From positions 1 to 15,789 of the forward strand of contig DAOVRJ010000027.1 of assembly GCA_030628225.1 (NCBI GenBank): 15,789 bases of DNA, in the 5' to 3' direction. Under the pieces are notes generated by a model that did not search any database, was not told the DNA's origin, and was given only the letters and a program-made list of their open reading frames with translations. This DNA comes from Candidatus Zixiibacteriota bacterium. GTDB lineage: Bacteria; SM23-81. Positions within the stretch are counted from its first letter, which is position 1. The number at the start of each line of letters is the position of its first letter. Shown piece by piece: positions 1-15,529 of this stretch. A program made the position numbers and the translations under genes.

Positions 1-698
1 ACAAAAAGGGCAATGCCGATAAATTCACTCAAGGCATGCTGGATGGTAGCCAGGGCCAAAAACTGACCGCCGTATTCAACCATCGGCCCGGATGAAATTT
101 CCTGTGGCGCCTTAACAATCTCAAAAGGCCGGATACCCAGGATTGCTGGCAGGATGAGAATATAGGAGATTCCGGATAATAATAAAGGCAAAGAAACGAG
201 AGCCCAACCCGTATCTTGCTGTATGCTGACGATGTGAACGATGGAGATGGTTTTATAGTGCGTCATCACTGCTAGAAGGATGAGTAACAATGGTATCTCA
301 TACCCCAGAGCCAAGAGCAGTTTACGAGATATACCAATACTGGTATTCGGGTTTGCCGCTTCTCCTCCGCTGAGCGCAATACCCAATGGGCTTAAAAGCA
401 TCATGTAAAGAATAACCAGCATCCCACCAGAACCGCTTAGCGGACAAATCTGCCCCACTGGAAGAAACAAAACCACGACAAGGGAACCGGCTAAGGCGCA
501 GATAATCCCCAGGTTAAACAATCTTCCGTGGCTGACACTCTTTTGACTGAATAGCCTGATGATATCAATCACGGGCTGGGTAATCGGTGGACCATAGCGC
601 CAATGGATTCTGGCCATGATCTTTCTGGATAAACCCAAGAAAAAAATCCCAATGATCAGTGCTAAAAGCGGGGATAAAATGATCTCGACGATGTGCAT
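1..698 (-). CDS. NuoH/EchB/MbxM-like membrane subunit of a group 4 hydrogenase-type complex (partial, 3' end outside window)
   Basis: This is the membrane anchor that connects the catalytic ferredoxin/hydrogenase arm to the ion-pumping arm in complex I-like enzymes. The visible part (about 232 residues) is strongly hydrophobic. Near the N-terminus it has WRYGPPITQP followed by a DIIRLF helix, the form typical of EchB/HyfC/MbhM rather than of true NuoH (which has RxGPNR). Further on are the YEIP segment in a membrane helix and PFEIVKAPQEI followed by SGPMVEYGG, the family's conserved acidic loop facing the quinone-like cavity. I chose the ATG at 698 because it overlaps the preceding stop as TAATG and has TGGAG upstream. 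An ATG at 713 is in frame but lacks a ribosome site. It is the last gene seen in the mrp/mbx-like operon. Whether the enzyme is a hydrogenase or an Mbx-type reductase cannot be told from this subunit. Confidence 0.93.
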   Translation of the reverse strand, partial: MHIVEIILSPLLALIIGIFFLGLSRKIMARIHWRYGPPITQPVIDIIRLFSQKSVSHGRLFNLGIICALAGSLVVVLFLPVGQICPLSGSGGMLVILYMMLLSPLGIALSGGEAANPNTSIGISRKLLLALGYEIPLLLILLAVMTHYKTISIVHIVSIQQDTGWALVSLPLLLSGISYILILPAILGIRPFEIVKAPQEISSGPMVEYGGQFLALATIQHALSEFIGIALF

Positions 699-2554
699 TA
701 CCACAGACTCCATTTAACTTGAATGAAAATGAGCAAGGCCACAAACAACACGATATACATCACATAATGGCCCACATACCCAGTGTAAATCCGCCTTACC
801 CCACTGCATAGATTTTGGGTCCATCCGGCCAGTTTCATATAAAACGCATCAATAAAATCTTTGAGATAGGGAGTGATCATCCGATACAGGGGATTATAAA
901 AATCTACAGTGTAATGATATTTGTCCTTGGGAATGGCTGCTCCAGCAGCGTAGTTATCTTCTTGGCCAACGGATATTGCTTTTTGTCCCGCCTTGAAAAT
1001 AAATGCCACAACAATGCACCCTACTAGAATTGCTACAAATAGGTTAATCGTATTCAATGCACCAGTCTCTGAAGCAATTCCCCACAACGTTACACTCAAT
1101 GATTCCAAACCGAAAGAAACGCCGATCGCATTGATCACCTTGAGCGGGATACCCGGAAGAATGCCAAAAAGAAGAATTGCAAAAGATAAGACGATGATGG
1201 GAAGTTGCATACTGAAAGGTGATTTCTGTATATCTCTGTATTTTTCTGGAAGCTGCCCTAAGAAAATATTATGAATGAGTTTATAACTGTAAAGAATTGT
1301 TCCCCATGTTCCAAATAAAGCTGCAAAGGCTAAGAAAGGAGACTGTTCAAGTATTAAAGTTTTATATATCAACCACTTTGAAACAAATCCATTGGTTAAT
1401 GGTAGTCCTATTAATCCACAAATACCAATCAAGGCACCAATGAAGGCAATTGGCATTTTCTTTATTAATCCTCCCAAAGAATTCAAATCACGTATTCCAT
1501 TGGTCCGATATTCTACTGCTCCAACAACAAGAAAAAGCAAACCTTTAAAAACTGCATGATTAAAAAAGTGGAAAATACCACCGGCCACACTCACACTTGT
1601 TCCAAAGGCAATTCCTAAGATTATATACCCTGCCTGTCCGATAGTAGACCAGGCGAGAAGTTTTTTGGCATCATCCTGAAGTACGGCAATAAACGTGGGA
1701 ATAAGTATAGTAAGTGCTCCTAATATACAGAGAATGTACCGAAAGCTTAATACACCATGACCTAAGTTCAAAAACTTGTTAAGTCCAACTATTACATATA
1801 TAAAAAGAATAAAACCATACGTACCCATTTTGATTAATATTCCTGAAAGAATAGAACTAAACGGAGAAGGAGCCTCGGCATGAGCAGAAGGAAGCCAGGA
1901 ATGGAAGGGAAGTATTGCATTTTTAATTCCAAAAGCAGTAAAGAAGAGAATCAGAATAGATAAAATGTAACCAGAAGAGGCCAGATTACTACTGGCAGCA
2001 ATTTCTGAGATATTCAATGTTCCATACGTTGTATATATCGATATTACTCCTATAAGCATAGCCATTGAACCAACAGTAGACATAATGATATACTTCATTC
2101 CTGCAGCCAGAGCGGCGCCCCGATTGTAACTGATTAAAAGGAACGTCGACCAGCTCATTATTTCCCAGAAGATGAAAAAGGAAAGCAAGTCACCAGAGAG
2201 AACAATACCAAGCATTGCGGCATTGATTAAAAGCAACATCAGATAGTAGAAATCTGCTCTTTCTCTGTTTTTTATATAGCTTAAGGAAAATATAACAGAA
2301 AGTGACCCTAAAACGGAAATGGCAATTGCGAATAACCAGGAGAGCATATTTGTTCTCAAAATCAACGGCAAACCCAAGAAACCGAAATAGAAAGATTTCT
2401 CAATGGTTTTGCCGTATAAACAGACAATCATCACCACCAAGGTCAGCGAAATGAGTACTGCAAAACTTTCTCTAAGCTTTGATGAAATCTTGCCTAAGAC
2501 GTATGTGAATAACGAACCACCAAAAGCAATGGCAAGTAAAAATTCCAAGCTCAT
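698..2554 (-). CDS. NuoL/M-like (MbxH'-type) ion-translocating membrane subunit
   Basis: A 618-residue proton-conducting antiporter-like subunit with about 14 or more membrane helices. Family landmarks are all present: Glu131 in the FIFWEIMSWS helix, Lys211 just before LPFHSWLPSAHAEAPSP (His218), Lys242 in SGILIKMGTYGF, the KKLLAWSTIGQAGY segment near 297-310, His333/Lys337 in HAVFKGLLF, and Lys393 in GFVSKW. The protein is longer than MrpD (about 490). Residues about 500-618 hold extra helices around a hydrophilic stretch (about 528-560), which fits a lateral coupling helix like those of NuoL and MbxH'; that fit is inferred. Its start overlaps the MrpD-like stop as ATGA, with AGGAG upstream. 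The middle of the gene (about 1260-2400) is much more AT-rich than either end. Confidence 0.93.
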   Translation of the reverse strand: MSLEFLLAIAFGGSLFTYVLGKISSKLRESFAVLISLTLVVMIVCLYGKTIEKSFYFGFLGLPLILRTNMLSWLFAIAISVLGSLSVIFSLSYIKNRERADFYYLMLLLINAAMLGIVLSGDLLSFFIFWEIMSWSTFLLISYNRGAALAAGMKYIIMSTVGSMAMLIGVISIYTTYGTLNISEIAASSNLASSGYILSILILFFTAFGIKNAILPFHSWLPSAHAEAPSPFSSILSGILIKMGTYGFILFIYVIVGLNKFLNLGHGVLSFRYILCILGALTILIPTFIAVLQDDAKKLLAWSTIGQAGYIILGIAFGTSVSVAGGIFHFFNHAVFKGLLFLVVGAVEYRTNGIRDLNSLGGLIKKMPIAFIGALIGICGLIGLPLTNGFVSKWLIYKTLILEQSPFLAFAALFGTWGTILYSYKLIHNIFLGQLPEKYRDIQKSPFSMQLPIIVLSFAILLFGILPGIPLKVINAIGVSFGLESLSVTLWGIASETGALNTINLFVAILVGCIVVAFIFKAGQKAISVGQEDNYAAGAAIPKDKYHYTVDFYNPLYRMITPYLKDFIDAFYMKLAGWTQNLCSGVRRIYTGYVGHYVMYIVLFVALLIFIQVKWSLW

Positions 2555-4020
2555 CCTATAACACTCCTGATGTAATCAATTCTGTTTAGAAACTCTGAAG
2601 CAGCAGAATTTAAAACATCTGTAAGAAGTTTGGGATATATCCCAATAACTATTATCAATGTCACAAAAATAAACATCGGAATTAGACCAGTCACAGGAGC
2701 TTCGTTTCTTTCCGAATCTCCATTTCCTTTCTTAAAATAAAGCGCCTGCACCACACGGAAAAAATAGGCGCCTTCGATGACCGTTCCCAAAAGGACAAGC
2801 CCGATGAGCCCAGTGAATAGGACCGCTTCCTTAGCCAGAGCCGCTTGAACAATCAGAAATTTGCTGGGAAATCCGACAAAGGGAGGTAGACCAACGATGG
2901 AGAACGCACCGATAGTGAAGGCCAGGGAAGTCAGGGGCATTCGCTTCCCCATGCCCTCTAAAGAGGATATTTCCATGGAGCCGCTTCGATAGATCATGTA
3001 TCCTACGGCTAAAAACAGAAGACTTTTGCCCAATGTATGACTGACCAGTTGGAACAGTCCTCCGGTAACGGCCAAAGAGGTTGCCATGGCCATGGCAAAT
3101 ACGATTAAGCCAATCTGGCCGATACTGGAATAGGCCAACATCCTTTTGATGTTTTTCTGGCTAAAGGCACACATCTCCCCGATCAAGAGGGTTAAAATCC
3201 CCAAGAATACTAAAAACATGAATATGCTGGAAACACCAAATATCGTGAAGATTACCCGGACAACAGCATAAAGACCGACTTCGATGGCGATGCCAGATAG
3301 AATCGCACTGATCGATGAGGGCGCGGAGGAATGTGCATCGGGTAGCCAGGCATTCAGTGGAAATATCGCTGCCTCGATTCCCAGGCCGGTGATTATCAGG
3401 ACCATGGGAACAAATACAGAGATGGGACTCGCTGATTCGATATGCTGGGCGAGGTCCGCCATGTTGAGGGTGCCGAAAAGACCATAAAGTAATCCGATGC
3501 CAATCAGCAGAAAGCTTGAGCCAACCGCTCCTTGAATCAAATACTTTATCGCCGATTCGATACCGGCCCGATCTCCAATATAGGCCACCAAAGCATAGGA
3601 TGAAATGCAGAGAATCTCAAAGAAGACAAAGAGGTTAAATATATCACCGGTAAGCACAACCCCTGTGGCTCCGGTAAGAAGCAGAAGATAAAGCATATGG
3701 TACTTTTCTTTCGAGCCCTCCTTAATATACGTTAACGCATAGATGGCCACTAAGAGACCTGCGACTGCGATGAGGACAGAAAACAGAACTCCGACTGGAC
3801 CAGCGACCAGATTGATGCCAAAAGGAGGAGGAAAACCCCCGATGCGTACCACAATCGGATGCTTCAATACCTCGGGAATAAGCAGCAAAGCAACAGCAAG
3901 GTTGAAAGCAAAGGCAGCAATGGGAATATATTTTACAATTCTTTTTGATATAAATCCAAACAGCGGTATGGCGAAAGCAAGTCCTAAAGGGACAACAATT
4001 AGAAGGACAGGGCTTACCAT
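2551..4020 (-). CDS. MrpD/MbxH-like antiporter subunit with Glu at both usual channel-lysine positions
   Basis: A 489-residue Mrp subunit D-type membrane protein, the typical length for MrpD/MbhH, with about 14 hydrophobic helices. Motifs: GDIFNLFVFFEI with Glu135, PLNAWLPDAHSSAPS at 221-235, KRMLAYSSIGQIGL near 292-305, SHTLGKSLLF with His328/Lys332, and FPSKFL with Lys387. The lysine normally preceding the F-P-x-x-x-WLPDAH motif is Glu216 (GIEAAIFPLNAW), and the lysine of the next helix is Glu247 (SGIAIEVGLY). The second NuoL/M-like subunit next door keeps both lysines. The change may be a subfamily trait. The start overlaps mrpC by 7 nt, with AGGAG five bases upstream. Role: sodium/proton translocation within the membrane arm. 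Confidence 0.94.
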   Translation of the reverse strand: MVSPVLLIVVPLGLAFAIPLFGFISKRIVKYIPIAAFAFNLAVALLLIPEVLKHPIVVRIGGFPPPFGINLVAGPVGVLFSVLIAVAGLLVAIYALTYIKEGSKEKYHMLYLLLLTGATGVVLTGDIFNLFVFFEILCISSYALVAYIGDRAGIESAIKYLIQGAVGSSFLLIGIGLLYGLFGTLNMADLAQHIESASPISVFVPMVLIITGLGIEAAIFPLNAWLPDAHSSAPSSISAILSGIAIEVGLYAVVRVIFTIFGVSSIFMFLVFLGILTLLIGEMCAFSQKNIKRMLAYSSIGQIGLIVFAMAMATSLAVTGGLFQLVSHTLGKSLLFLAVGYMIYRSGSMEISSLEGMGKRMPLTSLAFTIGAFSIVGLPPFVGFPSKFLIVQAALAKEAVLFTGLIGLVLLGTVIEGAYFFRVVQALYFKKGNGDSERNEAPVTGLIPMFIFVTLIIVIGIYPKLLTDVLNSAASEFLNRIDYIRSVIG

Positions 4021-4373
4021 CTTTGCTCCTTTATCTTTCGTAGATCAAGCACCCCGTAATGGTGATACAACCTTATGGCCAAGGAAAGAGCCAAAGCCAG
4101 AACCGCCACTCCGATGACAATAGCCGTCAGCACCAGCGCCTGAGGAACGGGATCGACCATACGTTCGGATTCAACTGCTGAATTCGAAAATATGGGGGCC
4201 GTTCCTTTGCTGATATAACCGACGGCAATCAAAAATAGATTAACACCCGTCTCGAGGATACTGAGGCCGATGATCACCTTAATCAAGTTGTGTTTCACCA
4301 GCATGATGAAAAGTCCGATGAATATAAGCCCAAAGGCTCCAATGTAATAAATATAGTCATGCAGAAAAGTCAT
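4014..4373 (-). CDS. mrpC: MrpC/NuoK-like (MbhG) cation antiporter subunit
   Basis: A 119-residue protein with three membrane helices, normal for MrpC/MnhC. It carries Glu41 in the second helix (LSILETGVNLFL), equivalent to the conserved helix-2 glutamate of NuoK, and the family signature VDPVPQALVLTAIVIG at 73-88. It is a small ion-path subunit that packs between the MrpD-like subunits. The start overlaps the previous gene's stop as ATGA, and its own end overlaps the MrpD-like gene by 7 nt, so the three are probably translationally coupled. Confidence 0.95.
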   Translation of the reverse strand: MTFLHDYIYYIGAFGLIFIGLFIMLVKHNLIKVIIGLSILETGVNLFLIAVGYISKGTAPIFSNSAVESERMVDPVPQALVLTAIVIGVAVLALALSLAIRLYHHYGVLDLRKIKEQRW

Positions 4374-5056
4374 TCACTTTCCTCCACCAAGTGATCGATA
4401 ACCCCGGTTAGTTCTGAACCAACTTTTAATCCGATGGCAATATAAATAATCGGAATGACCCCTGCACTGAATAACGAATTGAGCTCTCCCTTCGACAGAA
4501 AGTTCGAGAGAAAATAGTGTCCACCCACGGCCAAACCGACCAGTCCTACCACGATAAAAACCAATCCGCCTAAGGATTCAACCGTTTTGATCCCTGTTTC
4601 GCTGACTCTTCTTCCCCGGCAACCCAGATAAGCAAGAAGAAAGGCCGAGGCGACGACTACGCCTCCCTGAAAACCTCCACCGGGGGTGAGATGTCCATGG
4701 ATAGATATATATGCTCCGAAAAGGAGTATCAGAGGGAATAAAAATCGGCAGCCCGCGTACAACACCAAACTCGCCGGTTCGATTTCTCTTTTCTCCTTTT
4801 TTCTCCGGGTCGCCAAAACAGCACCCAATCCAATCGCCGCTATAAAAAGTATTGTCACTTCGCCGAGCGTATCAAAACACCGATAATTGACCACCACCGA
4901 AGTGACGATGTTTGCAGCCCCGGTCTCTTCCCTTCCTTTATCGATATAGTAATCGCCGATTTTCGTCTTTGGTACTCCAAAAGGAATCTTGTCCAATGAT
5001 ATGGCAATCCCCAAAGCAATGACAGACAATAGAATAAGGCTGATAATACTTTTCAT
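4370..5056 (-). CDS. Fused MbhE-MrpB (MnhB) membrane subunit
   Basis: A 228-residue protein made of two parts that are separate genes in Pyrococcus Mbh. Residues 1-86 match the MbhE / MrpA C-terminal segment: an N-terminal helix, a short extracytoplasmic stretch, VVNYRCFDTLGE at about 55-66, a helix and then a basic RRKKEKR turn. Residues 95-228 are the MrpB/MnhB domain with the signature HGHLTPGGGFQGGVV at 120-134 and four hydrophobic segments. I chose the ATG at 5056, which overlaps the MbhD-like stop as ATGA and has AAGAGG upstream. The frame stays open for 97 further codons upstream, but that part is antisense-like sequence over the MbhD-like and mrpG genes in another frame. Part of the membrane ion-translocating arm. 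Confidence 0.93.
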   Translation of the reverse strand: MKSIISLILLSVIALGIAISLDKIPFGVPKTKIGDYYIDKGREETGAANIVTSVVVNYRCFDTLGEVTILFIAAIGLGAVLATRRKKEKREIEPASLVLYAGCRFLFPLILLFGAYISIHGHLTPGGGFQGGVVVASAFLLAYLGCRGRRVSETGIKTVESLGGLVFIVVGLVGLAVGGHYFLSNFLSKGELNSLFSAGVIPIIYIAIGLKVGSELTGVIDHLVEESE

Positions 5057-5292
5057 TCCTCGTACCTCTTTGTTCGTCTGATTGCTATAATAAAGACAGC
5101 GCTGACCAATGCCGCCCCGATGGACGCCTCCGCCATGGCAACATCCGGAGCCTGCAGGAAATAGAAGAGGATCGACGCGATTAAGCTGACCATACAGGAA
5201 GCAATCACCGCATTTATTAAATCCTTGAAAAAGATCGCTGCAATTGCGGCGACGAGCATCAAGAGTATCAACAAGGAAATCACAAGTATCAT
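5053..5292 (-). CDS. MbhD-like (DUF4040) membrane subunit, MrpA C-terminal equivalent
   Basis: A 79-residue protein of three hydrophobic helices with QAPDVAMAEASIGAALVSAV in the middle. This is the hallmark of the MbhD/DUF4040 segment that lies near the C-terminus of MrpA in the stand-alone antiporter. It stands alone here, as in Mbh/Mbx operons, and no NuoL-like MrpA domain accompanies it. That supports the operon encoding an enzyme-linked Mrp module rather than a free Na+/H+ antiporter. The start overlaps mrpG as ATGA, with a strong AAGGAGAG site three bases upstream. Confidence 0.92.
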   Translation of the reverse strand: MILVISLLILLMLVAAIAAIFFKDLINAVIASCMVSLIASILFYFLQAPDVAMAEASIGAALVSAVFIIAIRRTKRYEE

Positions 5293-5621
5293 GATCTCTC
5301 CTTAAATTCCTCAAAGTCTTCCGTCTTGTCCACCACGCTTCTGTCACACAGAGAAACGCCGCTTTTACGGGAGGCTCTGGCTATAGCATGGCTGGAGATG
5401 GGATTGGTTACCAGAACAAACAGTGCAATAAGTAAAACTTTCCAGAACCAGGTCGGCTGTATTATCCCCACTCCGATAATAATGAAAAAAGCACCTAAAG
5501 TAGTGCATTTTGTTCCTGCCTGAATCCGGTTATAGACGTCGGGGAGTCTGAGTACACCAAGATTTCCTATAAATAGAAATAAAGTTCCAATTCCGATAAT
5601 AACCGTACCGAATAATTCCAT
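5289..5621 (-). CDS. mrpG: MrpG/MnhG (MbhC) cation antiporter subunit
   Basis: A 110-residue protein with three membrane helices and the MnhG signature RLPDVYNRIQAGTKCTTLG at 25-43. The usual HA of the RxHAxTK motif is QA here. A hydrophilic tail of about 30 residues (RASRKSG to the end) is expected on the cytoplasmic side. The ATG directly follows the mrpF stop codon (TAG-ATG). The ribosome site AGAGGA lies inside the mrpF end, so translation is likely coupled. Confidence 0.94.
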   Translation of the reverse strand: MELFGTVIIGIGTLFLFIGNLGVLRLPDVYNRIQAGTKCTTLGAFFIIIGVGIIQPTWFWKVLLIALFVLVTNPISSHAIARASRKSGVSLCDRSVVDKTEDFEEFKERS

Positions 5622-5882
5622 CTAAATTCCTCTTTCCAGAAATCTAGCAAGGGCGACTAATCCGATAAAAGCCAGCAAAGAATAAACCAGCGAAACATCC
5701 AGGTAAACATATCTTTTGAATACAAGTCCTAAAAGGACAAGCAAAGCGACGACAGTGGTGGTAATCGTATCCACCGCCACGGCTCTATCCGAAGCAGTAG
5801 GACCTTTCAGCATGCGTAAAAAAGAGAGGAAAATGCCTATTCCGATAATGACTATAAAAACGAAAACGACTGTTTCACTCAT
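5622..5882 (-). CDS. mrpF: MrpF/MnhF (MbhB) cation antiporter subunit
   Basis: An 86-residue, three-helix MrpF/MnhF subunit. The conserved cytoplasmic motif between helices 1 and 2 is present as GPTASDRAVAVDTI, with Asp32 and Asp38 at the family's conserved acidic positions. The length is normal for the family (about 85-95). The start overlaps the mrpE stop as ATGA, and the end abuts mrpG. Confidence 0.95.
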   Translation of the reverse strand: MSETVVFVFIVIIGIGIFLSFLRMLKGPTASDRAVAVDTITTTVVALLVLLGLVFKRYVYLDVSLVYSLLAFIGLVALARFLERGI

Positions 5883-6400
5883 GCAAATATCACCCTTAGA
5901 TATTTTTCAAACTTTTCACCAATGATCTTCGTAGCCTCATCCACATTTTCTGACTTAACATTGATCCAGTGAATGAGCAGCGTATCACCCAGGATGTCCA
6001 ATGTAAATGTTCCCGGCGTCAAGGTAATCGAATTGGCCAGGATCAACTTGGCAATATCCTGCTTTAATGTCGTTTTGATCACGACGATTCCAGGCTTGAT
6101 GGGCATCTTCGGATGAATCACCCTATAAGCCACATCAAAATTTGCCTTAATGATTTCTTTGAAGAGGACAACGATATAGATAATGAAAAATGCGATCCGT
6201 TTGATGCTAAACGGTGGGAACCCCAGCCCAAGATAGTTTTTATTTAAGATTAAGGAAATAACAAGACTAACGAGAACGCCGACTGAGAGTTCCTGCCAGT
6301 GGAAGTTTGAAGTGAGGGCAAGCCAAATGATCAGGAGGATGAAAAAGAGATAAAAGAAGTTTCTTACTCGATGGGTTGCTTTATAGGCCGTTTCTGCCAT
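5879..6400 (-). CDS. mrpE: MrpE/MnhE (MbhA) cation antiporter subunit; first gene of the left operon
   Basis: A 173-residue MrpE/MnhE protein. Two or three hydrophobic segments fill residues 13-100 (LFFILLIIWLAL, VLVSLVISLIL, FFIIYIVVLFKEIIKANFDV), followed by a soluble domain with the family pattern LANSITLTPGTFTLDI (about 120-135) and a Leu-x-His-Trp-Ile segment. No gene lies directly upstream on this strand, so transcription of the Mrp/Mbx-like operon should begin before it. A GAAAGG ribosome site sits about ten bases before the ATG. A MrpE-first order (E, F, G, D, E/B, C, D) is the reverse of the classical mrpA-G order and is the Mbh/Mbx arrangement. Confidence 0.95.
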   Translation of the reverse strand: MAETAYKATHRVRNFFYLFFILLIIWLALTSNFHWQELSVGVLVSLVISLILNKNYLGLGFPPFSIKRIAFFIIYIVVLFKEIIKANFDVAYRVIHPKMPIKPGIVVIKTTLKQDIAKLILANSITLTPGTFTLDILGDTLLIHWINVKSENVDEATKIIGEKFEKYLRVIFA

Positions 6401-6515: not shown

Positions 6516-6684
6516 CATCGAAACATTCTGATCTCACGCCAAACATTGCTTATATCAATGCCGTGGCGTGATCAAACAGTATTTCCATCTCTACCTGAAA
6601 GAAACAGAGTGGCGGTTCAGTCATCGAGATGAAAATCTGGTCCCGTTGCTTAAAAAATATATCAACCAACCGCTTAGCAAATAG
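6502..6684 (+). pseudogene. C-terminal remnant of an IS1595-like transposase
   Basis: Plus-strand translation gives HITNIETF, a TGA stop (6529-6531), SHAK, then KETEWRFSHRDENLVPLLKK and a natural TAG at 6682-6684. This resembles the end of IS1595/ISXO2-type DDE transposases, where N-x-I-E-x-F-W-S is followed by a helical stretch and an E-x-R-F-N-H-R-x-x-x-L motif. The TGA stands exactly where that motif has Trp (TGG), so it is a point mutation. The N-terminal and central parts of the transposase are missing, so the element is dead. Identification rests on remembered motifs, not a search. Confidence 0.7.
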
Positions 6685-6930
6685 CGATTTTAACGCAACT
6701 TTAGTGATAAGTGCCGCAATATATAATATTTCAATCGCAAAGTCAAGCACACTTTTGGTTATGTCCCTAAAAAGGTGACAAAAGATATCCAAATAAAGAA
6801 GGCGATCGTTTTTCTGATGAAGAGGAATTATATTGGACACCTCGCAACAACCCATAACCCCTAACTCAATCGATTGGCGGTAATCCAATATAAAAACAGC
6901 ACATCTTCTCCCTTGGCAGAAGAGGTTTTG

Positions 6931-7300
6931 ATCGATGATGACGATTTTCTCAGATAGCTGGCCCAGAGAGTCTGTCAAGTGCTTGTAGATGAAAAGCTGA
7001 ATTGTGTTCTGGAAACCGAACCTTATGAGCGCACTGGAACCAGAAAGGGTTATCGCAACTGTCGTCGGTCCAGAACGCTAAAGACTTGGACGGGGAGTTT
7101 AGAGCCGTTGGCGTCTCGGGATAGGGAAGGTCACTTCCAGACGGAGTTGTTTGAGCGTTACCATTCGCAAGGTCCGAGAGGTCACCGAGGCCCTCTGCGG
7201 CACCGAGTTCTGTACATCCCAGTTCTCTCAGCTTACCCAGCAGCTGGATGAACAGCTTTGCCCATGGAGACAAAAACCTCTTCCGGGAAGATATCCCTCG
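6931..7300 (+). pseudogene. N-terminal remnant of an IS256-family (mutator-type) transposase
   Basis: The plus strand reads DDDDFLR, a TAG stop (6955-6957), then LAQRVCQVLVDEKL, PYERTGTRKGYRN, SRTLKTWTGSLEP and RDREGHFQTELFERY. This is the N-terminal pattern of IS256 transposases (E-R-x-x-x-R-x-G-Y-R-N-G, L-x-T-R-x-G-x-L, P-R-D-R-x-G-x-F, E-L-F-E-R-Y). At about 7157-7162 the homology jumps frame to VTIRKVREVTEALCGTEF and LTQQLDEQLCPWRQKPLPG. The usual 20 or so residues between FERY and RKV are lost, so there is an internal deletion with frameshift. Only about a third of a normal 400-residue transposase remains, and the catalytic part is gone. Confidence 0.82.
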
Positions 7301-7316
7301 TCGGTAGCCCACACCA

Positions 7317-8351
7317 TCAACAGATGCGCGGAAGCAGCTCTCCCGTCGGCAGATCGATGATCCTGCTGCCCCCTATCTTGGTCCTTAACACAGCCATGCC
7401 GGGGTGCTCGGCCACAACTTGACCGATGATGGTCGACTCCCTTCCCAGAGGATCCTTTCTCAGAATCGAGAGAACCTCCTGCTCTCTCCCCTTGGCCACA
7501 AAAAGGACCATCTTCCCCTCGTTGGCTATGTATAGGAAATCGAGACCTAATAGCTCACATGCTCCACGCACCTCATCTCGCACCGGGATCTGCTCCTCAT
7601 CCACCTGTATGCCCATCTGTCGGTCCAGGGCAATCTCAGCCAAGATGGTCCCCACCCCCCCACGCGTTGGATCCCGCATACATCGGACGCCCAGGCTGGG
7701 ATCCAGCACGCCCTGAACCAAGCTCACCAGAGAGGCACAATCGCTTCTTAGCTGGCTGGCAAAGCCAAAGCTCTCCCTCTGGGACAGTATGGAGATGCCG
7801 TGGTCGCCGATAGGTCCGCTAACCAGGATGGCATCTCCCATCTCGATCCTCCGGGGAGATATATCCAGATCCGCTGGCACCACCCCAACACCCGAGGTGT
7901 TCACAAATATACCGTCACCCTTGCCCTTTTGCACCACCTTGGTATCTCCACAGATCACCTCCACACCTACTTCGCCCGCCTCCCTGCTGGCCGAGTCTAA
8001 AATCCGCTCCAGCTTATCCAGGGAGAACCCCTCCTCAAGAATGAGCGCCAGGCTCAAATAAAGAGGCCTAGCGCCAACACAGAGCAGATCATTCACCGTG
8101 CCGGTGACAGCCAGTTTTCCGATATCCCCCCCCGGGAAGAAAAGTGGCTGAATCACATAGGAATCGGTGGTAAAAGCCAGCCGTACGCCGTCGACCTCGA
8201 AGAGGGCGCTATCCTCCAAACGGTGCAGGGTCGGATGGCCGAAATGTTTGAGGACAAGATCCTGGATTAGCTCGCGACTCAATCGGCCACCAGAACCATG
8301 AGCCATGGTAACCCGTTTCACTTTTGGAACGTTATTCTTTGAATCAGGCAC
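7317..8351 (-). CDS. hypE: HypE, [NiFe]-hydrogenase maturation: thiocarboxamide to thiocyanate dehydratase
   Basis: HypE carries the carbamoyl group on its C-terminal Cys and dehydrates it with ATP to the thiocyanate that supplies the CN ligands of the hydrogenase iron. The 344-residue product has the N-terminal MAHGSGGRLSRELI motif, EDSALFEVDG and FTTDSYVIQPLFFPGGDIG (the PurM/HypE ATP-binding region), VICGDTKVV, MRDPTRGGV and the essential C-terminal PRIC ending in Cys344. I chose a GTG start at 8351 because it has AAAGGAGGGG five bases upstream. The frame is open 41 codons further up but has no such site. The gene overlaps hypA by 34 nt and ends the operon. IS256 debris begins almost at its stop codon, and I see no terminator. 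Confidence 0.95.
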   Translation of the reverse strand: MPDSKNNVPKVKRVTMAHGSGGRLSRELIQDLVLKHFGHPTLHRLEDSALFEVDGVRLAFTTDSYVIQPLFFPGGDIGKLAVTGTVNDLLCVGARPLYLSLALILEEGFSLDKLERILDSASREAGEVGVEVICGDTKVVQKGKGDGIFVNTSGVGVVPADLDISPRRIEMGDAILVSGPIGDHGISILSQRESFGFASQLRSDCASLVSLVQGVLDPSLGVRCMRDPTRGGVGTILAEIALDRQMGIQVDEEQIPVRDEVRGACELLGLDFLYIANEGKMVLFVAKGREQEVLSILRKDPLGRESTIIGQVVAEHPGMAVLRTKIGGSRIIDLPTGELLPRIC

Positions 8352-8692
8352 TCTCGCCCCTCCTTTATATCCATCCCCGGCTGACCGCAATGTGGGCAGA
8401 CCAGGGTGGGAAGCAAAAAATGAGCCTCCGGTCCGGGACACGAAGGTGCCCCCTGGAAACCACATTTCGAACACCTGACCAGGGCGGGTCTATTGATGAT
8501 CTCCAGGGTGGCCCCCCGGGATATATCTTTGTGAGAGAAAACCTCCTCAACCCAGAACCTCACTTGCTCTTCGTTGAGCAAAGTTAGCTCCCCAATTACC
8601 ACCACCACCCGCTCGATCAGCTTGGCCTCATTCTCCCGGGCGGTGCGGAAAACCACTTGGGTTATCTGCTGGGCAATGGAGAACTCGTGCAT
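8318..8692 (-). CDS. hypA: HypA, nickel insertion metallochaperone for [NiFe]-hydrogenase
   Basis: A 124-residue HypA, slightly longer than the usual 113-120. It begins MHEFSIAQQI, where Met1, His2 and Glu3 belong to the nickel site. It has a structural zinc site formed by Cys74/Cys77 (CSKC) and Cys99/Cys102 (CPHC), with a 21-residue loop between the pairs. It delivers Ni(II) with HypB to the large-subunit precursor after the Fe(CN)2CO unit is in place. The ATG lies seven bases after the hypB stop, with a GAGGGT ribosome site, and its 3' end overlaps hypE. Confidence 0.96.
   Translation of the reverse strand: MHEFSIAQQITQVVFRTARENEAKLIERVVVVIGELTLLNEEQVRFWVEEVFSHKDISRGATLEIINRPALVRCSKCGFQGAPSCPGPEAHFLLPTLVCPHCGQPGMDIKEGRECLIQRITFQK
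8357..8366 (-). promoter_or_regulatory. Strong ribosome binding site setting the GTG start of hypE
   Basis: AAAGGAGGGG on the minus strand, five bases before the GTG at 8349-8351. It lies inside the hypA coding end and decides the start in favour of GTG over upstream ATG codons or the internal ATG of MAHGSGG. Confidence 0.75.
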
Positions 8693-8699
8693 AGTACCC

Positions 8700-9392
8700 T
8701 CATGCGCCGGATTTCATCCCCGTTGCCAGACCCAGGGCCTCAATCACCTCTGCCGTTCCCTGATCGGCAATCAAGCTCGTCTTGACCACTTTGATCCGCG
8801 GATCGATCCTGGCCATGTCGGCTTTTAACTTTTCGGGGTCCACTTTCATGGCCGCGGCCAGTTCCACCTTATTAATGGCCACAACATCGGCCTCTCTAAA
8901 GATATACGGATGCTTAACCACCATGTAAGGTCCCTCGGTGACGGAGATAACCACCAGCCTCTTCTGGGCTCCCAGAGGAAACTCGGCCGGGCAGATGAGA
9001 TTGCCCACATTCTCGGTGAACAGCAGATCAAGCTCCTCCAGGGGCAGGGTCTTCAGGGCCTTGCCCACTAGGTTGGCGTCCAGATGACACTCCTTTCCGG
9101 TGTTCACCTGCACCACACTGGCACCTTGCTGTTCGATCTTCTGGGCATCGATGGTGGTGGTCAGATCTCCGGCCACCACCCCCACATTTGCGGTTTTCCC
9201 CAAATGATTGGTCAGCCGTTCGATCATGGTGGTCTTTCCCGACCCGATGGAACCCATCACATCGATACCCATCACACCGTGCTTATCCAGTAGCCGACGG
9301 TTAACCTCGGCGATCTCCTCGTTCTTCCTGAGCAGATCCTCCTCTAACTCTATATCGAAGCTCTCTCCTTCCTGAAACTCTACGACCTTCAT
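8700..9392 (-). CDS. hypB: HypB, GTPase for nickel insertion into [NiFe]-hydrogenase
   Basis: A 230-residue SIMIBI-class GTPase acting with HypA. The P-loop GSIGSGKTT is at 47-55. The metal site at the dimer interface is Cys102-His103 (NTGKECHLDA) with Cys134 (ENVGNLICPAEF). It has neither the N-terminal Cys motif nor the His-rich stretch of enterobacterial HypB, so it is the short form typical of archaea and many anaerobes. The guanine-recognition motif, normally NKxD, reads NKVE at 174-177. I chose the ATG at 9392 because GAGGAGGG lies four bases upstream. The frame is open 39 codons further but overlaps hypD there. It starts 10 bases after the hypD stop. Confidence 0.95.
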   Translation of the reverse strand: MKVVEFQEGESFDIELEEDLLRKNEEIAEVNRRLLDKHGVMGIDVMGSIGSGKTTMIERLTNHLGKTANVGVVAGDLTTTIDAQKIEQQGASVVQVNTGKECHLDANLVGKALKTLPLEELDLLFTENVGNLICPAEFPLGAQKRLVVISVTEGPYMVVKHPYIFREADVVAINKVELAAAMKVDPEKLKADMARIDPRIKVVKTSLIADQGTAEVIEALGLATGMKSGA

Positions 9393-9396
9393 CTGT

Positions 9397-9404
9397 CCCT
9401 CCTC
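9397..9404 (-). promoter_or_regulatory. Ribosome binding site setting the ATG start of hypB
   Basis: GAGGAGGG on the minus strand, four bases before the ATG at 9390-9392, overlapping the hypD stop codon. It rules out the longer reading frame as the hypB start. Confidence 0.7.
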
Positions 9405-10503
9405 AGGCAGAATTTGAAAAACGTCCATATCTAAAATGTGCTGCACAGGTGCCCTCAGATGAGACCATGCAGGCTCCCACGGGATGCTCGGGCGTGCAGG
9501 ATCGGGCAAACAGGGAACAGTCCCGGGGCGTTTTCAGACCTCGCAGAATGAGACCACAGATACAGCCGGCATGTTCCACCGTTCGCTCCACCTGTGCGGT
9601 AATATTGGCCTCTGCGTCGTGATCCATATAACTACTTCTCATGACCAGCCCACTGTCGGGGATGTTCCCCAGACCTCGCCATGGCGACTCTTTAGGCTGG
9701 AAGACCTCCTCTACCAGTTCCCGGGCCCGGGGGTTGCCCTCATCGGGTACCACTCGTCGATACTGGTTCTGCACCCGGATGTGTTCCTGGACAATCTGGG
9801 TGATCAACATCAGCACTGACTGGAGGATGTCGGTGGGCTCGAAACCGGAGACCACACAGGCGATGCCGTGATCTCTGGCCAAAAATTCGTAGATCCCGCA
9901 GCCGGTGATGGCGCTTACATGCCCCGGGCAGATAAGACCATGAAGCCTCAGCTGATCGTCATCCACCAGAACCTTCAGGGCCGGGGGCAAAATCTTGTGT
10001 CCCACAAGAACGAAAAAGTTTTTCACTCCCTGCTCATGAGCATCCACGATGGCCGCGGCCACCGATGGGCTGGTGGTCTCAAAACCGATGCCCAGAAAAA
10101 CCACCTTTTTGTGCACATAGCTCTTGGCCAGCTCCAGGGCATCGGCTGGTGAATACACCATACGAACGTCGGCGCCCCGGCCCCTTTCCTCGATGAGAGA
10201 GGAGCTGGAGCCGGGAACCCGCAACATGTCTCCAAATGTGGCCAGAAGGACATCATCTTGGCGGCTGTATGCCACGGCTCGATCCAAATAGGCGTTGGGG
10301 GTGACGCAAACGGGGCATCCCGGGCCGGAGAGGAGGTTCACGTTGGGTGGCAGAAAATCCTTGATCCCATGTTGAAAAATGGCCATGGTGTGTGTTCCGC
10401 ACACCTCCATCAGGGCGATCTCTCGACGGCCAGCCACCCGGGCAATCTCCCTGGACAGATCCTGGCAGAACTCAGCGTTGCGATACTCATCCAGGTGCTT
10501 CAT
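9403..10503 (-). CDS. hypD: HypD, iron-sulfur scaffold for Fe(CN)2CO assembly
   Basis: HypD with HypC holds the iron on which CN and CO ligands are built. The 366-residue product has all family landmarks: EVCGTHT with Cys35, GPGCPVCVTP with Cys63 and Cys66, GFETT, PGHVS, and the C-terminal cysteine-rich stretch CTPEHPVGACMVSSEGTCAA that belongs to the [4Fe-4S] site. I chose the ATG at 10503, with GAGGGAGGTG seven bases upstream; a TTG two codons earlier is too close to that site. It overlaps the end of hypC by 17 nt, which suggests coupled translation of the two partners. Confidence 0.96.
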   Translation of the reverse strand: MKHLDEYRNAEFCQDLSREIARVAGRREIALMEVCGTHTMAIFQHGIKDFLPPNVNLLSGPGCPVCVTPNAYLDRAVAYSRQDDVLLATFGDMLRVPGSSSSLIEERGRGADVRMVYSPADALELAKSYVHKKVVFLGIGFETTSPSVAAAIVDAHEQGVKNFFVLVGHKILPPALKVLVDDDQLRLHGLICPGHVSAITGCGIYEFLARDHGIACVVSGFEPTDILQSVLMLITQIVQEHIRVQNQYRRVVPDEGNPRARELVEEVFQPKESPWRGLGNIPDSGLVMRSSYMDHDAEANITAQVERTVEHAGCICGLILRGLKTPRDCSLFARSCTPEHPVGACMVSSEGTCAAHFRYGRFSNSA

Positions 10504-10714
10504 GGGCAAGCACCTCCCTCAGCAGTGAGAGGGTCTCCTCGGCCTCATTCTGGTCCAACCTCTGCAGGGCAAAGCCGGCGTGAACGATGACGTAATCGCC
10601 CACCTTCACCTGGGAGAGTAAACGCAGATCTATCTCCCGGCTCATCCCGCCGATATCGGCGATCCCCCTCTGCCCTTTGATTTCTAATACTTTCATGGGA
10701 ACGCTTATGCACAT
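10487..10714 (-). CDS. hypC: HypC, small chaperone of Fe(CN)2CO assembly
   Basis: A 75-residue HypC/HupF-type chaperone. It starts MCISVPMKVLEI, where Cys2 is the essential iron-binding residue exposed after Met removal, and shows the family pattern VKVGDYVIVHAGFAL at 36-50. It binds HypD and carries the iron unit to the hydrogenase large-subunit precursor. The start overlaps the hypF stop as TAATG, and a GGGGAGGGG site lies about six bases upstream. Confidence 0.96.
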   Translation of the reverse strand: MCISVPMKVLEIKGQRGIADIGGMSREIDLRLLSQVKVGDYVIVHAGFALQRLDQNEAEETLSLLREVLAHEAPG

Positions 10715-12303
10715 TATGTCCCCTCCCCACTCTGATAACCGGCTATGGCCGCCTGGCCAAGGGCAACACCGCCGTCATTTGGCGGCACCTGTCGGTGCAG
10801 CAACGGTTCAAAACCATCCCGGCGCAACAGGTCCACCACCATCTCTGTGAGCAGTTTGTTCTGAAAAACGCCTCCGGAGAGAGCTACCCTTTCCAGGCCA
10901 TGAGACCCCCGGATATGCTGACAGCAAAGGCTCACCAGGTCAGCCACCGACCGGTGAAACCGGCGAGCGATCTCGGGCACGGAGACCTTCCGCCTGAGAT
11001 CCCCTAGAATCTCCCTTACCATAGGGCGGGGATCAACGTTCAGATAGTCTCCTTCCCGGGAGATGGACCAGGAATAACCGTTCACAGGCCCGGAGATCCT
11101 CTCCGCGGCCACCTGAAGCTTCACCGCCGCTTCTCCCTCAAAGGTGTTATGCTGACAGATGCCCAATAAGGATGCGACGGCATCGAAAAGGCGGCCCATG
11201 CTGGAGGCCAGGGGGGCGTTGTACCCCCGGGCCAACATCTGAAAAACGGTTTCCAGGGCATCGGCTTCCAGATGGTCAAATAGGGCTCGTTCCCACGATC
11301 CCAGCCGTGATCCATACATGGAGAACAGATAGCTCAGAGCCATCCGCCACGGCTCCCGGTTGGCAGCATCACTGCCCGGCAAAGGCATGTAGCGTAGCTG
11401 GCCCAGGCGTCGGAAACCCTCGTAATCTGCCACCATGAACTCCGCACCCCAGATGTGCCCATCGGTCCCGTACCCCAATCCATCGAAGACCACGCCGATG
11501 ACCGGCTCCCGCACGCCGTTCTCAGCCATGCAGGCAACCACATGGGCGTGGTGATGCTGAACCGCTACCATTTTAAGTTTTTTTTCATGATCTGCGCCCC
11601 GTTCCAGGGCATAGCGAGTGGACAGATAGCTCGGATGCAGGTCATGGGCTAAAATACCGGGGCGTATGCGAAAGAGATCTTCAAATCGCTCGATCATCTG
11701 AAGGTAAAATCGGTACGTCTCCATATTCTTCAAATCGCCGATATGCTGGCTATTAAAAGCGTAATTTCCCCGAGCCACACAGAAGGTGTTCTTCAGCTCA
11801 GCACCACAGGCCAGTACCGATGGAACCTCAAATGGTAGCTCCACCGGCATAGGGACATAGCCCCGGGCTCGTCGAAAGGGAACGGGCCTTTCATCGATGA
11901 ACCGAAAAATGGAGTCATCGCACCGATTGTGGATCTCCCGGTCGTGGAACAAAAAGGCATCGGCGATCCCGGACAGCTCCCTGCGGGCCAGTTCGTTGTC
12001 GCCGATCAGAGGTTGATCGCTCACGTTTGCGCTGGTGGCCACCATGGCCAATAGATCACTCTCCAATATCAAGTTGTGCACCGGAGCATATGGCAACATG
12101 ACACCCAGCGTGTTGTTTCCCGGCGCGACTTGGGCCGAGATGGGGTGCTCGTCCCGCTGCTCTAAGATGACGATGGGCCGCATGGGCGACGAGAGCAGTT
12201 CCTCCTCGGCGGAGCAAAGGTGACAGTATGAGCGTACCCGATCCAGGCTCAGGGACATGATGGCCAGAGGTTTGGCCGACCGGCCCTTTCTGCGGCGGAG
12301 CCT
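10714..12303 (-). CDS. HypF C-terminal fragment: rest of YrdC-like domain and Kae1-like carbamoyltransferase domain
   Basis: The frame after the stop holds 529 codons plus the natural TAA. From the first internal Met (12258) it contains TSANVSDQPLIGD of the YrdC-like domain. The Kae1-like transferase domain follows, with the metal-binding HHHAH (235-239 from that Met), VVFDGLGYGTDGHIWGAEF, LSGGVFQNKLLTE and PPNDGGVALGQA. The Met at 12258 has no ribosome site (the bases before it are CTCTGGCCATC). Independent translation is therefore doubtful, and the piece is probably expressed only if the stop is read through or absent in the living cell. Its end overlaps the hypC start as TAATG. Confidence 0.75.
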   Translation of the reverse strand, partial: RLRRRKGRSAKPLAIMSLSLDRVRSYCHLCSAEEELLSSPMRPIVILEQRDEHPISAQVAPGNNTLGVMLPYAPVHNLILESDLLAMVATSANVSDQPLIGDNELARRELSGIADAFLFHDREIHNRCDDSIFRFIDERPVPFRRARGYVPMPVELPFEVPSVLACGAELKNTFCVARGNYAFNSQHIGDLKNMETYRFYLQMIERFEDLFRIRPGILAHDLHPSYLSTRYALERGADHEKKLKMVAVQHHHAHVVACMAENGVREPVIGVVFDGLGYGTDGHIWGAEFMVADYEGFRRLGQLRYMPLPGSDAANREPWRMALSYLFSMYGSRLGSWERALFDHLEADALETVFQMLARGYNAPLASSMGRLFDAVASLLGICQHNTFEGEAAVKLQVAAERISGPVNGYSWSISREGDYLNVDPRPMVREILGDLRRKVSVPEIARRFHRSVADLVSLCCQHIRGSHGLERVALSGGVFQNKLLTEMVVDLLRRDGFEPLLHRQVPPNDGGVALGQAAIAGYQSGEGT

Positions 12304-13101
12304 TTACACGGCCCGATCATCCGTGGCATCGCAACACAGATGGAAACCGCCAATGCCCTTAACGGCCACGATGTGGCCCATCTTTAGTCGTCGAACCGCC
12401 TCCCTCAAGGCCTCCTCTCCCTCCGCTTTGTTTCCCCGCATGTCGCGGAAGAACAGGTGCGGACCACAACGGCGACAGGCATTGGGCTGGGCATGATATC
12501 GGCGGTGGTCGATGTCCTCATATTCCTTCTGGCACGGAGGACACATGGTGAAGCTCCGCATGGTGGTCAGGGGACGATCGTAGGGCATTTTGGAGATGAT
12601 TGTAAAGCGTGGTCCGCAGTCAGTGCAATTGATGAAGGGATATCTATAGCGCCGATCATGGGGATCCAGCAATTCCTCCTGGCAATGGTCACACATGCAG
12701 ATATCCGGGGGCACCAGGACAAACTCATCGTTCACCTGTCTGCTCTTCTCAACGGAAAAGGCTCTCAATCCCTGGGGCGACCTTCTTTCGATTCGCTTAT
12801 CCACCACGTGCGCCATTGGCGGGGCTTCGGCAGAAACCCGGCTGTAGAATTCATCCACCCGCCCCCTGTCCCCCTCTATCTCAACTATCACTCCCCCGGA
12901 GAAATTGCACACCGAGCCGGCCAGCTCGCACTCTCGAGCCAGGCGGTGAACGAAGGGACGAAAACCGACACCCTGTACCATACCGCTGAGGGTGATCACC
13001 GCACCGACAGGAGAGCCCGGACCCTTCTTTTGACCATGGGCAGGTCGGAAAAGGCCACCAGCAGCTTGATTCCCAGCCCGAACTCCAGACCGCGACTTCA
13101 T
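12304..13101 (-). CDS. HypF N-terminal fragment: acylphosphatase, zinc fingers and start of YrdC-like domain
   Basis: This is what would be made if TAA at 12304-12306 terminates: 265 residues. An unusual Gly/Arg-rich N-terminal extension comes first. It is followed by the acylphosphatase-like domain (GMVQGVGFRPF, with the catalytic-type Arg48). Next come two zinc fingers of the form C-x2-C-x18-C-x2-C (CDHC with CTDC; CPPC with CRRC). The YrdC-like domain opens with GHIVAVKGIGGFHLCCDATD and is cut a few residues later. Alone it lacks the carbamoyl-AMP and transfer sites, so it should not support maturation. Confidence 0.8.
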   Translation of the reverse strand: MKSRSGVRAGNQAAGGLFRPAHGQKKGPGSPVGAVITLSGMVQGVGFRPFVHRLARECELAGSVCNFSGGVIVEIEGDRGRVDEFYSRVSAEAPPMAHVVDKRIERRSPQGLRAFSVEKSRQVNDEFVLVPPDICMCDHCQEELLDPHDRRYRYPFINCTDCGPRFTIISKMPYDRPLTTMRSFTMCPPCQKEYEDIDHRRYHAQPNACRRCGPHLFFRDMRGNKAEGEEALREAVRRLKMGHIVAVKGIGGFHLCCDATDDRAV

Positions 13102-13136: not shown

Positions 13137-14027
13137 TTAACTGGGTGAGGATGATCTCGCTCGTTCCAGAAACTCCTTTGAACCTATTCGATTCAGGGAA
13201 AAACCCAGCTCCTCCGCGGGGATATCCATGGCCAGCCCCAGCAGCTGGGGGTAATACACAACCGGCAGATCGTATTCCACCTGGAAGGTCATTCCGATCT
13301 TCTTCTGCATCGTCTCCAACATCACATTGCAGGTCCCGCACTGGAGCACAAGAGCATCGGCTCCGGCCTCTTTAGCCGCGTCCAGGGTCACTTTAGAGAT
13401 CTTCATGGCCGTATCCTGATCGATGCCCAGCAGGCTGCCACCACAGCACCATGTTCGATTCGAGTGGTACAGGGCGCGGGCTCCGGTAATTTCGATGAGC
13501 TCTTCCAAGCTTGTGGGACTTTCCGGATCCTCAATACGACCATGAACTTCCGCTGGCTTCAAGTAATGGCAACCGTAAAAGGGGGCCAACGCCAGGCCGG
13601 AAAGGGGATGGCGAATGTGCTTGCGGAGCCGATCCAGACCGACATCTTCGTATAGCAGCCGATCGAAATGCCTGACCTTCGTCTGGCCCGAATAGCGCCT
13701 TCCCACGGTTCGAAGATCGGAATTGATCCGAGCCAGAAAATGGGGGTCCTTCTCAAAAGCGTGATTGGCCTCTCCAAGACTGACCCCACAGGCACTGCAC
13801 AGAACGACGACGTCTAGGCCAGCCATCTCGGCCAGGCTCAAATTACCAGCGGCCAGCAACAGGGCCGAGTATTTATTCACCGACTGAATGGGAAAACCGC
13901 AGCAGAAGAAATCCTCGATGTCTACCAGGGAAATTCCCAGCTGATGGGCCACGCGCCGGGCCGAGATCTCGTAGTTCATGGCCCGCACCGGCACGGTGCA
14001 GCCAAGAAATATCGCGTATGCCAACAA
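13137..14027 (-). CDS. hdrB: HdrB, heterodisulfide reductase subunit B with two CCG domains
   Basis: HdrB carries the non-cubane [4Fe-4S] clusters that reduce the disulfide-type acceptor in Hdr complexes. The 296-residue product has both complete CCG motifs: Cys10 (FLGCTVP), Cys42-Cys43 (FFCCGFP) and Cys77/Cys80 (CSAC); then Cys153 (YGCHYLKP), Cys194-Cys195 (WCCGGS) and Cys230/Cys233 (CGTC). I prefer a TTG start at 14027 because GGGGAGGG lies five bases upstream and the protein then begins close to the FLGC motif, as in other HdrB. A TTG at 14054, overlapping the hdrC stop, would add nine residues. In a bacterium the acceptor need not be CoM-S-S-CoB and is unknown. Confidence 0.93.
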   Translation of the reverse strand: MLAYAIFLGCTVPVRAMNYEISARRVAHQLGISLVDIEDFFCCGFPIQSVNKYSALLLAAGNLSLAEMAGLDVVVLCSACGVSLGEANHAFEKDPHFLARINSDLRTVGRRYSGQTKVRHFDRLLYEDVGLDRLRKHIRHPLSGLALAPFYGCHYLKPAEVHGRIEDPESPTSLEELIEITGARALYHSNRTWCCGGSLLGIDQDTAMKISKVTLDAAKEAGADALVLQCGTCNVMLETMQKKIGMTFQVEYDLPVVYYPQLLGLAMDIPAEELGFSLNRIGSKEFLERARSSSPS

Positions 14028-14032
14028 CTGAT

Positions 14033-14040
14033 CCCTCCCC
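14033..14040 (-). promoter_or_regulatory. Ribosome binding site supporting the TTG start of hdrB
   Basis: GGGGAGGG on the minus strand, five bases before TTG at 14025-14027. It lies inside the longer frame that begins at 14054, so it favours the shorter HdrB. A second TTG follows at once (14022-14024) and could also be used. Confidence 0.55.
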
Positions 14041-14050
14041 ACAGGGAACC

Positions 14051-14575
14051 TCAATCCCCTTTGCCCTCCTTATCATCAGACAAAAAACCGCTTTTTTCCA
14101 GAAGGACGCGCACCTGGGAGGCATCCTGACGAAGTGGAGGGAGGTTAAAGCGACAACGCTTTTTGTTCTCCAAATCTCCGATTTCCATGAGCCGCCCAGC
14201 CTTGCTTAAAATCTTCATCTGCACCGAGAAAAACGGGTGAATGTGTCCTTCACGAACGGCGATATTTCTGAGGGCGATCATCAAATCGGCGATTTTCACT
14301 CCCTGAGGACAACGCTCCTGACAGGTGTAACAACTGGCGCACAGCCAGACGAAATCGTCGGTAAGAACCTGTTGCCTCATGCCCAGCAGGACCATATGGA
14401 CGATCCGCCGGGGGTTGAACCGTTCGTTCACCTGGCGAACCGGGCAGCTCGCCGAACATGTGCCGCAATCGAAGCAGCGGACGATCATCTCTCCACCACG
14501 CTCCCTGGCCACCTGAAATTTAAAGGTGGAATCCAGGCTGTCAATAGCGATCTTCTTCCTGTGTCGCTGGCTCAA
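14051..14575 (-). CDS. hdrC: HdrC, heterodisulfide reductase iron-sulfur subunit C
   Basis: A 174-residue ferredoxin-like subunit with two [4Fe-4S] motifs: Cys34, 37, 40, 44 (CFDCGTCSASCP) and Cys79, 82, 85, 89 (CASCYTCQERCP). It passes electrons from HdrA to HdrB in the cytoplasmic Hdr complex. It has no membrane helix, so it is the soluble HdrC and not the DsrM/HdrE-linked type. The start is TTG at 14575, overlapping the protease stop as TTGA, with GAGGAGG about five bases upstream. The end is next to hdrB in the usual C-B order. Confidence 0.94.
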   Translation of the reverse strand: MSQRHRKKIAIDSLDSTFKFQVARERGGEMIVRCFDCGTCSASCPVRQVNERFNPRRIVHMVLLGMRQQVLTDDFVWLCASCYTCQERCPQGVKIADLMIALRNIAVREGHIHPFFSVQMKILSKAGRLMEIGDLENKKRCRFNLPPLRQDASQVRVLLEKSGFLSDDKEGKGD

Positions 14576-15084
14576 AATCCCTCCTCACCCTTCCCCTCCG
14601 GCTCATCCACCGACGCATGGCCGGCGCAAAGCTCCTCCTTCAGAATGCGTTGCACAACAGCAGGGATGGCCTTGACAACCGCAGGGGTGCAGCCCCGATG
14701 CCAGGTCCGCACATCGGTCACCTCCACGGCATAGAAAATGACATCTTGGGGAACTTGACATCCGCACCTGCGGCCCAGGTCCAGGGCAGTGCTGATGCCG
14801 ATCCCATGAGCAGACCAGAATGGTACATCCTCTTTAAATGTATCCTGGGAAAGACGATATATCTGACCCGGTTTCCCTTCTTCGGTCTCGATAGCGTCGA
14901 TGACGACGAGTTTCTGGTATCCACATACCAGATCCAAGATGGCCAGACCGGCGACGCTTGCCTCCTGGAAAACCAGATCACCACGGTCAGAAAAACGCCG
15001 CCGAAGCTCCCGAACGACATGTATACCCACGGCATCATCGCTAAGCAGTTCGTTGCCCAAACCGAGAACAAGAGTCTTATTCAC
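14572..15084 (-). CDS. [NiFe]-hydrogenase maturation protease (HycI/HybD/FrcD family)
   Basis: A 170-residue endopeptidase that removes the C-terminal tail of the hydrogenase large subunit once nickel is inserted. It shows LVLGLGNELLSDDAVG at 5-20, with Asp17 at the nickel-ligand position (Glu16 in HybD), VVIDAI with Asp63, and SAHGIG with His93, the three nickel-sensing ligands of the family. The C-terminal 20 residues are Glu/Gly-rich and look unstructured. I chose GTG at 15084 because it places the protein start directly before the glycine motif; the ribosome site (GGGTGAG) is weak. It stands between mvhD and hdrC, which ties it to an Mvh-type hydrogenase whose genes are outside the window. 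Confidence 0.92.
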   Translation of the reverse strand: MNKTLVLGLGNELLSDDAVGIHVVRELRRRFSDRGDLVFQEASVAGLAILDLVCGYQKLVVIDAIETEEGKPGQIYRLSQDTFKEDVPFWSAHGIGISTALDLGRRCGCQVPQDVIFYAVEVTDVRTWHRGCTPAVVKAIPAVVQRILKEELCAGHASVDEPEGKGEEGF

Positions 15085-15121
15085 TGACTCACCCGAGAAA
15101 TGTCCTATAATTCTAAGAATC

Positions 15122-15529
15122 TTACTTGATGGGTATTTTCCCAAATTCCTTAATCTTCTGAATGAAGTCATTCACCGCCTGGGCATATTTTCGCCCCTCT
15201 GTAGCCTCGATATGCTGCACACTGAGCCGGTCTGGTTCCAGCCCGAATTGTCTCAGCAGAACCTTGGTCAGGGCCAGCCGAGCTTGAGCTCGATGGGCTC
15301 CTGCCACATGATGACAATCGGTTGGATGACAGCTGGCGATCATCACCCCATCGGCACCATTTCCGAAGGCCGCCAGGATGTGCTCGGGATCAATTTGGGC
15401 AGCGCAGGGAACCCTAAGGACCACAAAATTTGGGGCGATGGCAACTCGCTCCACACCGGCCATATCAGCTGCGGCACCGGCACACCAATCACAACAGAAA
15501 ACCAGAATTTTCGGCTGAAAGTCCTTCAC
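15122..15529 (-). CDS. mvhD: MvhD/FlpD-type [2Fe-2S] electron-transfer subunit
   Basis: A 135-residue MvhD protein, the normal family length. It links a hydrogenase or formate dehydrogenase to HdrA. The cysteines are Cys12, Cys13 and Cys16 in FCCDWCAGAAADMAG, Cys42 in VPCAAQIDP, and Cys67/Cys72 in ASCHPTDCHHVAG, with the family's FGNGADGV stretch before them. The usual N-terminal pattern FxCNWC-x-Y is slightly altered to CCDWCAG. The start is GTG at 15529, 19 bases after the hdrA stop; its ribosome site is poor, so coupling to hdrA translation is likely. Confidence 0.95.
   Translation of the reverse strand: MKDFQPKILVFCCDWCAGAAADMAGVERVAIAPNFVVLRVPCAAQIDPEHILAAFGNGADGVMIASCHPTDCHHVAGAHRAQARLALTKVLLRQFGLEPDRLSVQHIEATEGRKYAQAVNDFIQKIKEFGKIPIK

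Follow-up and report, generated by a model that had tools for sequence, protein, structure and literature searches.

HypF supplies the carbamoyl group for the CN ligands of the Fe(CN)2CO cofactor, which [NiFe] hydrogenases need (reviewed in PMC12134894), and deletion of hypF in E. coli leaves zero hydrogenase activity (PMC3149613). In E. coli BL21(DE3) the hydrogenases are silenced by a nonsense mutation, an amber codon at position 141 of fnr (PMC3149613). The hypF gene described here is similar in that one base change in one gene can accompany the loss of all [NiFe] hydrogenase activity. However, the BL21(DE3) mutation is proven and affects a regulator in a laboratory strain, whereas here an unverified base lies in hypF of an uncultured organism. 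The nearest HypF copy is that of candidate division Zixibacteria bacterium SM23_81 (LJUY01000002.1), with ~72% amino-acid identity and an equal domain order; its hypF is intact and carries alanine (GCC) at the position where the present gene has an internal TAA. A literature search gave no papers on nonsense alleles of hypF for this lineage. The internal stop in this hypF is accurately described but ordinary, with no sign of a special mechanism.

The stretch analysed (the window) makes up an entire 15.8-kb contig. The draft genome to which it belongs is ~92% complete and totals 2.34 Mb, spread over 306 contigs with a mean length below 8 kb. Translation of 13110-10714 on the minus strand gives a hypF frame with a single in-frame TAA at codon 266 of 795, numbering from the ATG at 13101 (Table 1), with GFHLCCDATDDRAV before it and RLRRRKGRSAKPLAIM after it. 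The acylphosphatase, zinc-finger, YrdC-like and Kae1-like domains follow one another in order (PF00708, PF07503 in two stretches, PF01300, PF17788 and PF22521), and only the uninterrupted reading frame expected of a HypF is lacking. Read through the stop, the whole frame scores 789.6 bits against TIGR00143 (curated cut-off 466.1) and covers profile positions 1-739, with one TAA inside the aligned part. The two parts match positions 1-227 and 229-739, thus exactly one profile position is missing and there is no indel. The frame is continuous for 230 codons between the beginning of the family match and the stop, and for 529 codons after it, which is more than chance. The YrdC-like domain is interrupted after its ~29th profile position. 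There is no homopolymer at the site, and no second stop or frameshift in 2,283 bases of the gene. The first-pass annotation had reported one TAA at codon 266 of an otherwise intact 795-codon hypF, and both the translation and the TIGR00143 match bear this out.

Table 1. Positions of hypF, its parts and the neighbouring hydrogenase-related genes in the window
Feature	Position	Strand	Remarks
hypF (carbamoyltransferase HypF)	10714-13101	-	795 codons + TAA, one internal TAA; family match proper starts at 12996
Internal in-frame TAA, codon 266	12304-12306	-	Variable alignment column, YrdC-like domain
Truncated product, 265 residues	12307-13101	-	Acylphosphatase (PF00708), HypF zinc fingers (PF07503), first ~27 YrdC-like positions (PF01300 3-29)
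hypF beyond the stop, 529 codons without defect	10714-12303	-	Rest of YrdC-like domain (PF01300 31-177) and Kae1-like carbamoyltransferase domain (PF17788, PF22521)
mvhD-like	15122-15529	-	Intact, upstream of hypF
Hydrogenase maturation protease	14572-15171	-	Intact, upstream of hypF
hdrC-like	14051-14575	-	Intact, upstream of hypF
hdrB-like	13137-14054	-	Intact, upstream of hypF
hypC, 75 aa	10487-10714	-	Intact; ATG overlaps terminal TAA of hypF (TAATG)
hypD	9403-10509	-	Intact
hypB	8700-9509	-	Intact; true start probably within the frame
hypA	8318-8692	-	Intact
hypE	7317-8474	-	Intact; aligns up to last residues

In an alignment with 24 other HypF sequences, the column of the stop is variable (R, K, A, G, L, Q, E, I, S or N) and no gaps are found near it. 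The alanine codon of SM23_81 has no base in common with TAA, so the preceding sense codon cannot be named, nor can a single-base step be reconstructed. The lysine (AAA) ancestor suggested in the first-pass annotation therefore cannot be shown, given a column with ten residues and GCC in the nearest relative. Outside this position, the present HypF keeps 86 of the 87 columns that are invariant in other full-length HypFs, and the relatives keep about as many each. Apart from the stop, HypF is under full constraint and shows no relaxation, and the gene has none of the further stops, frameshifts or lost invariant residues of a decaying pseudogene. The comparison with close relatives that had been proposed gives no internal stop in any of their 17 full-length or nearly full-length hypF copies, and there is none among the ~150 matches listed in a sample of another phylum. 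An exact-pattern scan of viral contigs found no other copy of the stop site.

The gene order mvhD-like, maturation protease, hdrC-like, hdrB-like, hypF, hypC, hypD, hypB, hypA, hypE, mnhE, mnhF, mnhG is common to this genome and SM23_81, and hypF is the only one of these genes with an internal stop. Two [NiFe] large subunits are found in the genome. The one on contig C80 shows the motif RICGVC at its N-terminal side and breaks off where the contig ends, while the one on contig C191 has both VCGIC and DPCYCC; both keep the metal-binding cysteine motifs as far as the sequence is present. Judging by neighbours and motifs, our reading is that the C80 subunit is probably of the Mvh type and the C191 subunit probably of the membrane-bound group 4 type. 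The earlier proposal that the maturation operon and its hydrogenase are on the way to loss is unsupported, since the other operon genes are intact and syntenic, HypF is unrelaxed and the hydrogenase cysteine motifs are kept. A second hypF elsewhere in the genome had also been suggested. A TIGR00143 search of the draft genome found no second full-length copy, and hypF is thus single in the ~92% complete bin; the sole other match, a lone acylphosphatase-like one on contig C77, is not a second hypF. A second copy in this organism is unlikely, rather than excluded, because the bin may lack ~8% of the genome.

The reading slightly favoured here is that one nonsense substitution arose recently in the genome's only hypF, and that the sampled strain or some of its population carries it (fixed or segregating). 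That the change would be recent follows from the absence of a second lesion in the gene, which places the age of the stop below ~5% neutral divergence on stops only, or ~1% once indels are counted as well, at an assumed rate of 0.1 per substitution. A consensus artefact, in which a base error or strain mixture in a low-coverage metagenome bin produced the TAA while hypF of the organism is intact, is a close rival, somewhat less probable than the substitution, and it is by inference that we order the two. The fragmentation of the bin is consistent with such an artefact, as are the intactness of everything functionally tied to HypF, the invariant residues that HypF keeps, and the lack of internal stops in the hypF copies of relatives and in those listed from the other phylum. 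Stop-making errors, however, are uncommon in the bin, and no homopolymer favours an error at the site. A survey of ~0.53 Mb of this genome against ~1.1 Mb of SM23_81-type sequence covered ~34,600-37,600 codons with good alignment on either side. Among functional genes, hypF alone had an internal stop there, the other hits being shadow frames and a degraded transposase; zero others in the ~32,000 codons outside the window sets no tight bound, being compatible with dozens genome-wide. Some apparent extra internal stops (L116, L110, L090, L127 and window positions 5063-5473) were rejected as shadow frames of intact genes or as stops before the true start. As the hydrogenases here need the Fe(CN)2CO cofactor, a fixed null allele of hypF would be costly, or else the mark of a very recent change. 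Selection also seems to act on the hydrogenase and the remaining hyp genes, which makes an error or a minor allele likelier than a fixed null. From the options listed in the first-pass annotation, recent nonsense mutation and consensus error both still fit, readthrough is without support, and a second hypF was not found in the ~92% complete bin.

Readthrough or recoding of the internal TAA, yielding full-length HypF, is improbable. It would account for the full constraint on both sides of the stop, but this is expected after any recent mutation as well; the variability of the column, where nearly any residue would do, is also compatible with it. Against it, there is no suppressor anticodon in the best 30 of 34 tRNA genes of the incomplete bin, RF1 is present in the genome, and no relative has a stop at that place. 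TAA is moreover in regular use as a stop, ending 27 of 107 surveyed genes (TAG 30, TGA 50) as well as hypF itself. A reassigned or suppressed TAA would show TAA in many conserved genes, a suppressor tRNA or TAA unused as a stop, none of which was found in the surveyed genes and the 30 tRNA genes checked; stop usage, release factor and tRNAs all lead to the rejection of recoding. The RF2 gene prfB was not found in the bin, but each of the three phylum relatives has it; this, together with the 50 of 107 genes that end in TGA, suggests that RF2 most likely lies in the missing part of the genome. Even less probable is the narrower idea that readthrough gives a small, perhaps regulated amount of full-length HypF, which would control all hydrogenases of the cell at translation. 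A split gene, in which termination and restart produce two working polypeptides, is equally hard to credit. Both parts are open, at 265 and 529 codons, but the cut falls inside the YrdC-like domain and not between domains, and none of the relatives is split. The first in-frame ATG (12258-12256) lies 15 codons past the stop, with no in-frame GTG or TTG between them. The earlier remark that this first Met has no ribosome site holds, as the purine-rich AGAAAGGG is ~25 bases upstream, which is too far. A restart at 12258 would also lose the conserved LRRRKGRSAKPLAI stretch. There is no positive evidence for either readthrough or a split gene.

If the TAA base is real, as the favoured nonsense substitution supposes, translation would end after 265 residues within the YrdC-like domain, so that the carbamoyl-adenylate-forming domain would be incomplete and the Kae1-like carbamoyl transfer domain absent, and HypF function would presumably be lost. 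Cells without complete HypF would be unable to carbamoylate HypE, and the CN ligands of their [NiFe] hydrogenases would be missing. Translation of hypC may be reduced too, because its start overlaps the hypF stop. The strain would then have recently lost hydrogenase maturation, with its hydrogenases and all other hyp genes still intact. For annotation, one base of a draft bin would lead a pipeline to score the genome as deficient in hydrogenase, or to annotate hypF as two genes.

On the other side of hypE, the hyp operon adjoins a Mrp-antiporter and membrane-bound hydrogenase-like gene set (window 3-6400, minus strand), which includes mnhE, F and G, a MbhD-like 79-aa frame (5053-5292), mnhB, mnhC, two ND-like subunits and a NuoH-like subunit, all intact. 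Directly beside the end of hypE (7317) lies what remains of an IS256-type (Transposase_mut) transposase (window 6826-7315, plus strand), a degraded copy that contains an internal stop as well as a frameshift and is missing at the corresponding place in SM23_81. The stretch at 6623-6857 has no Pfam or Rfam match, and shows ~71% identity to the hypE-mnhE intergenic stretch of SM23_81 (11251-11486, stretch L032).
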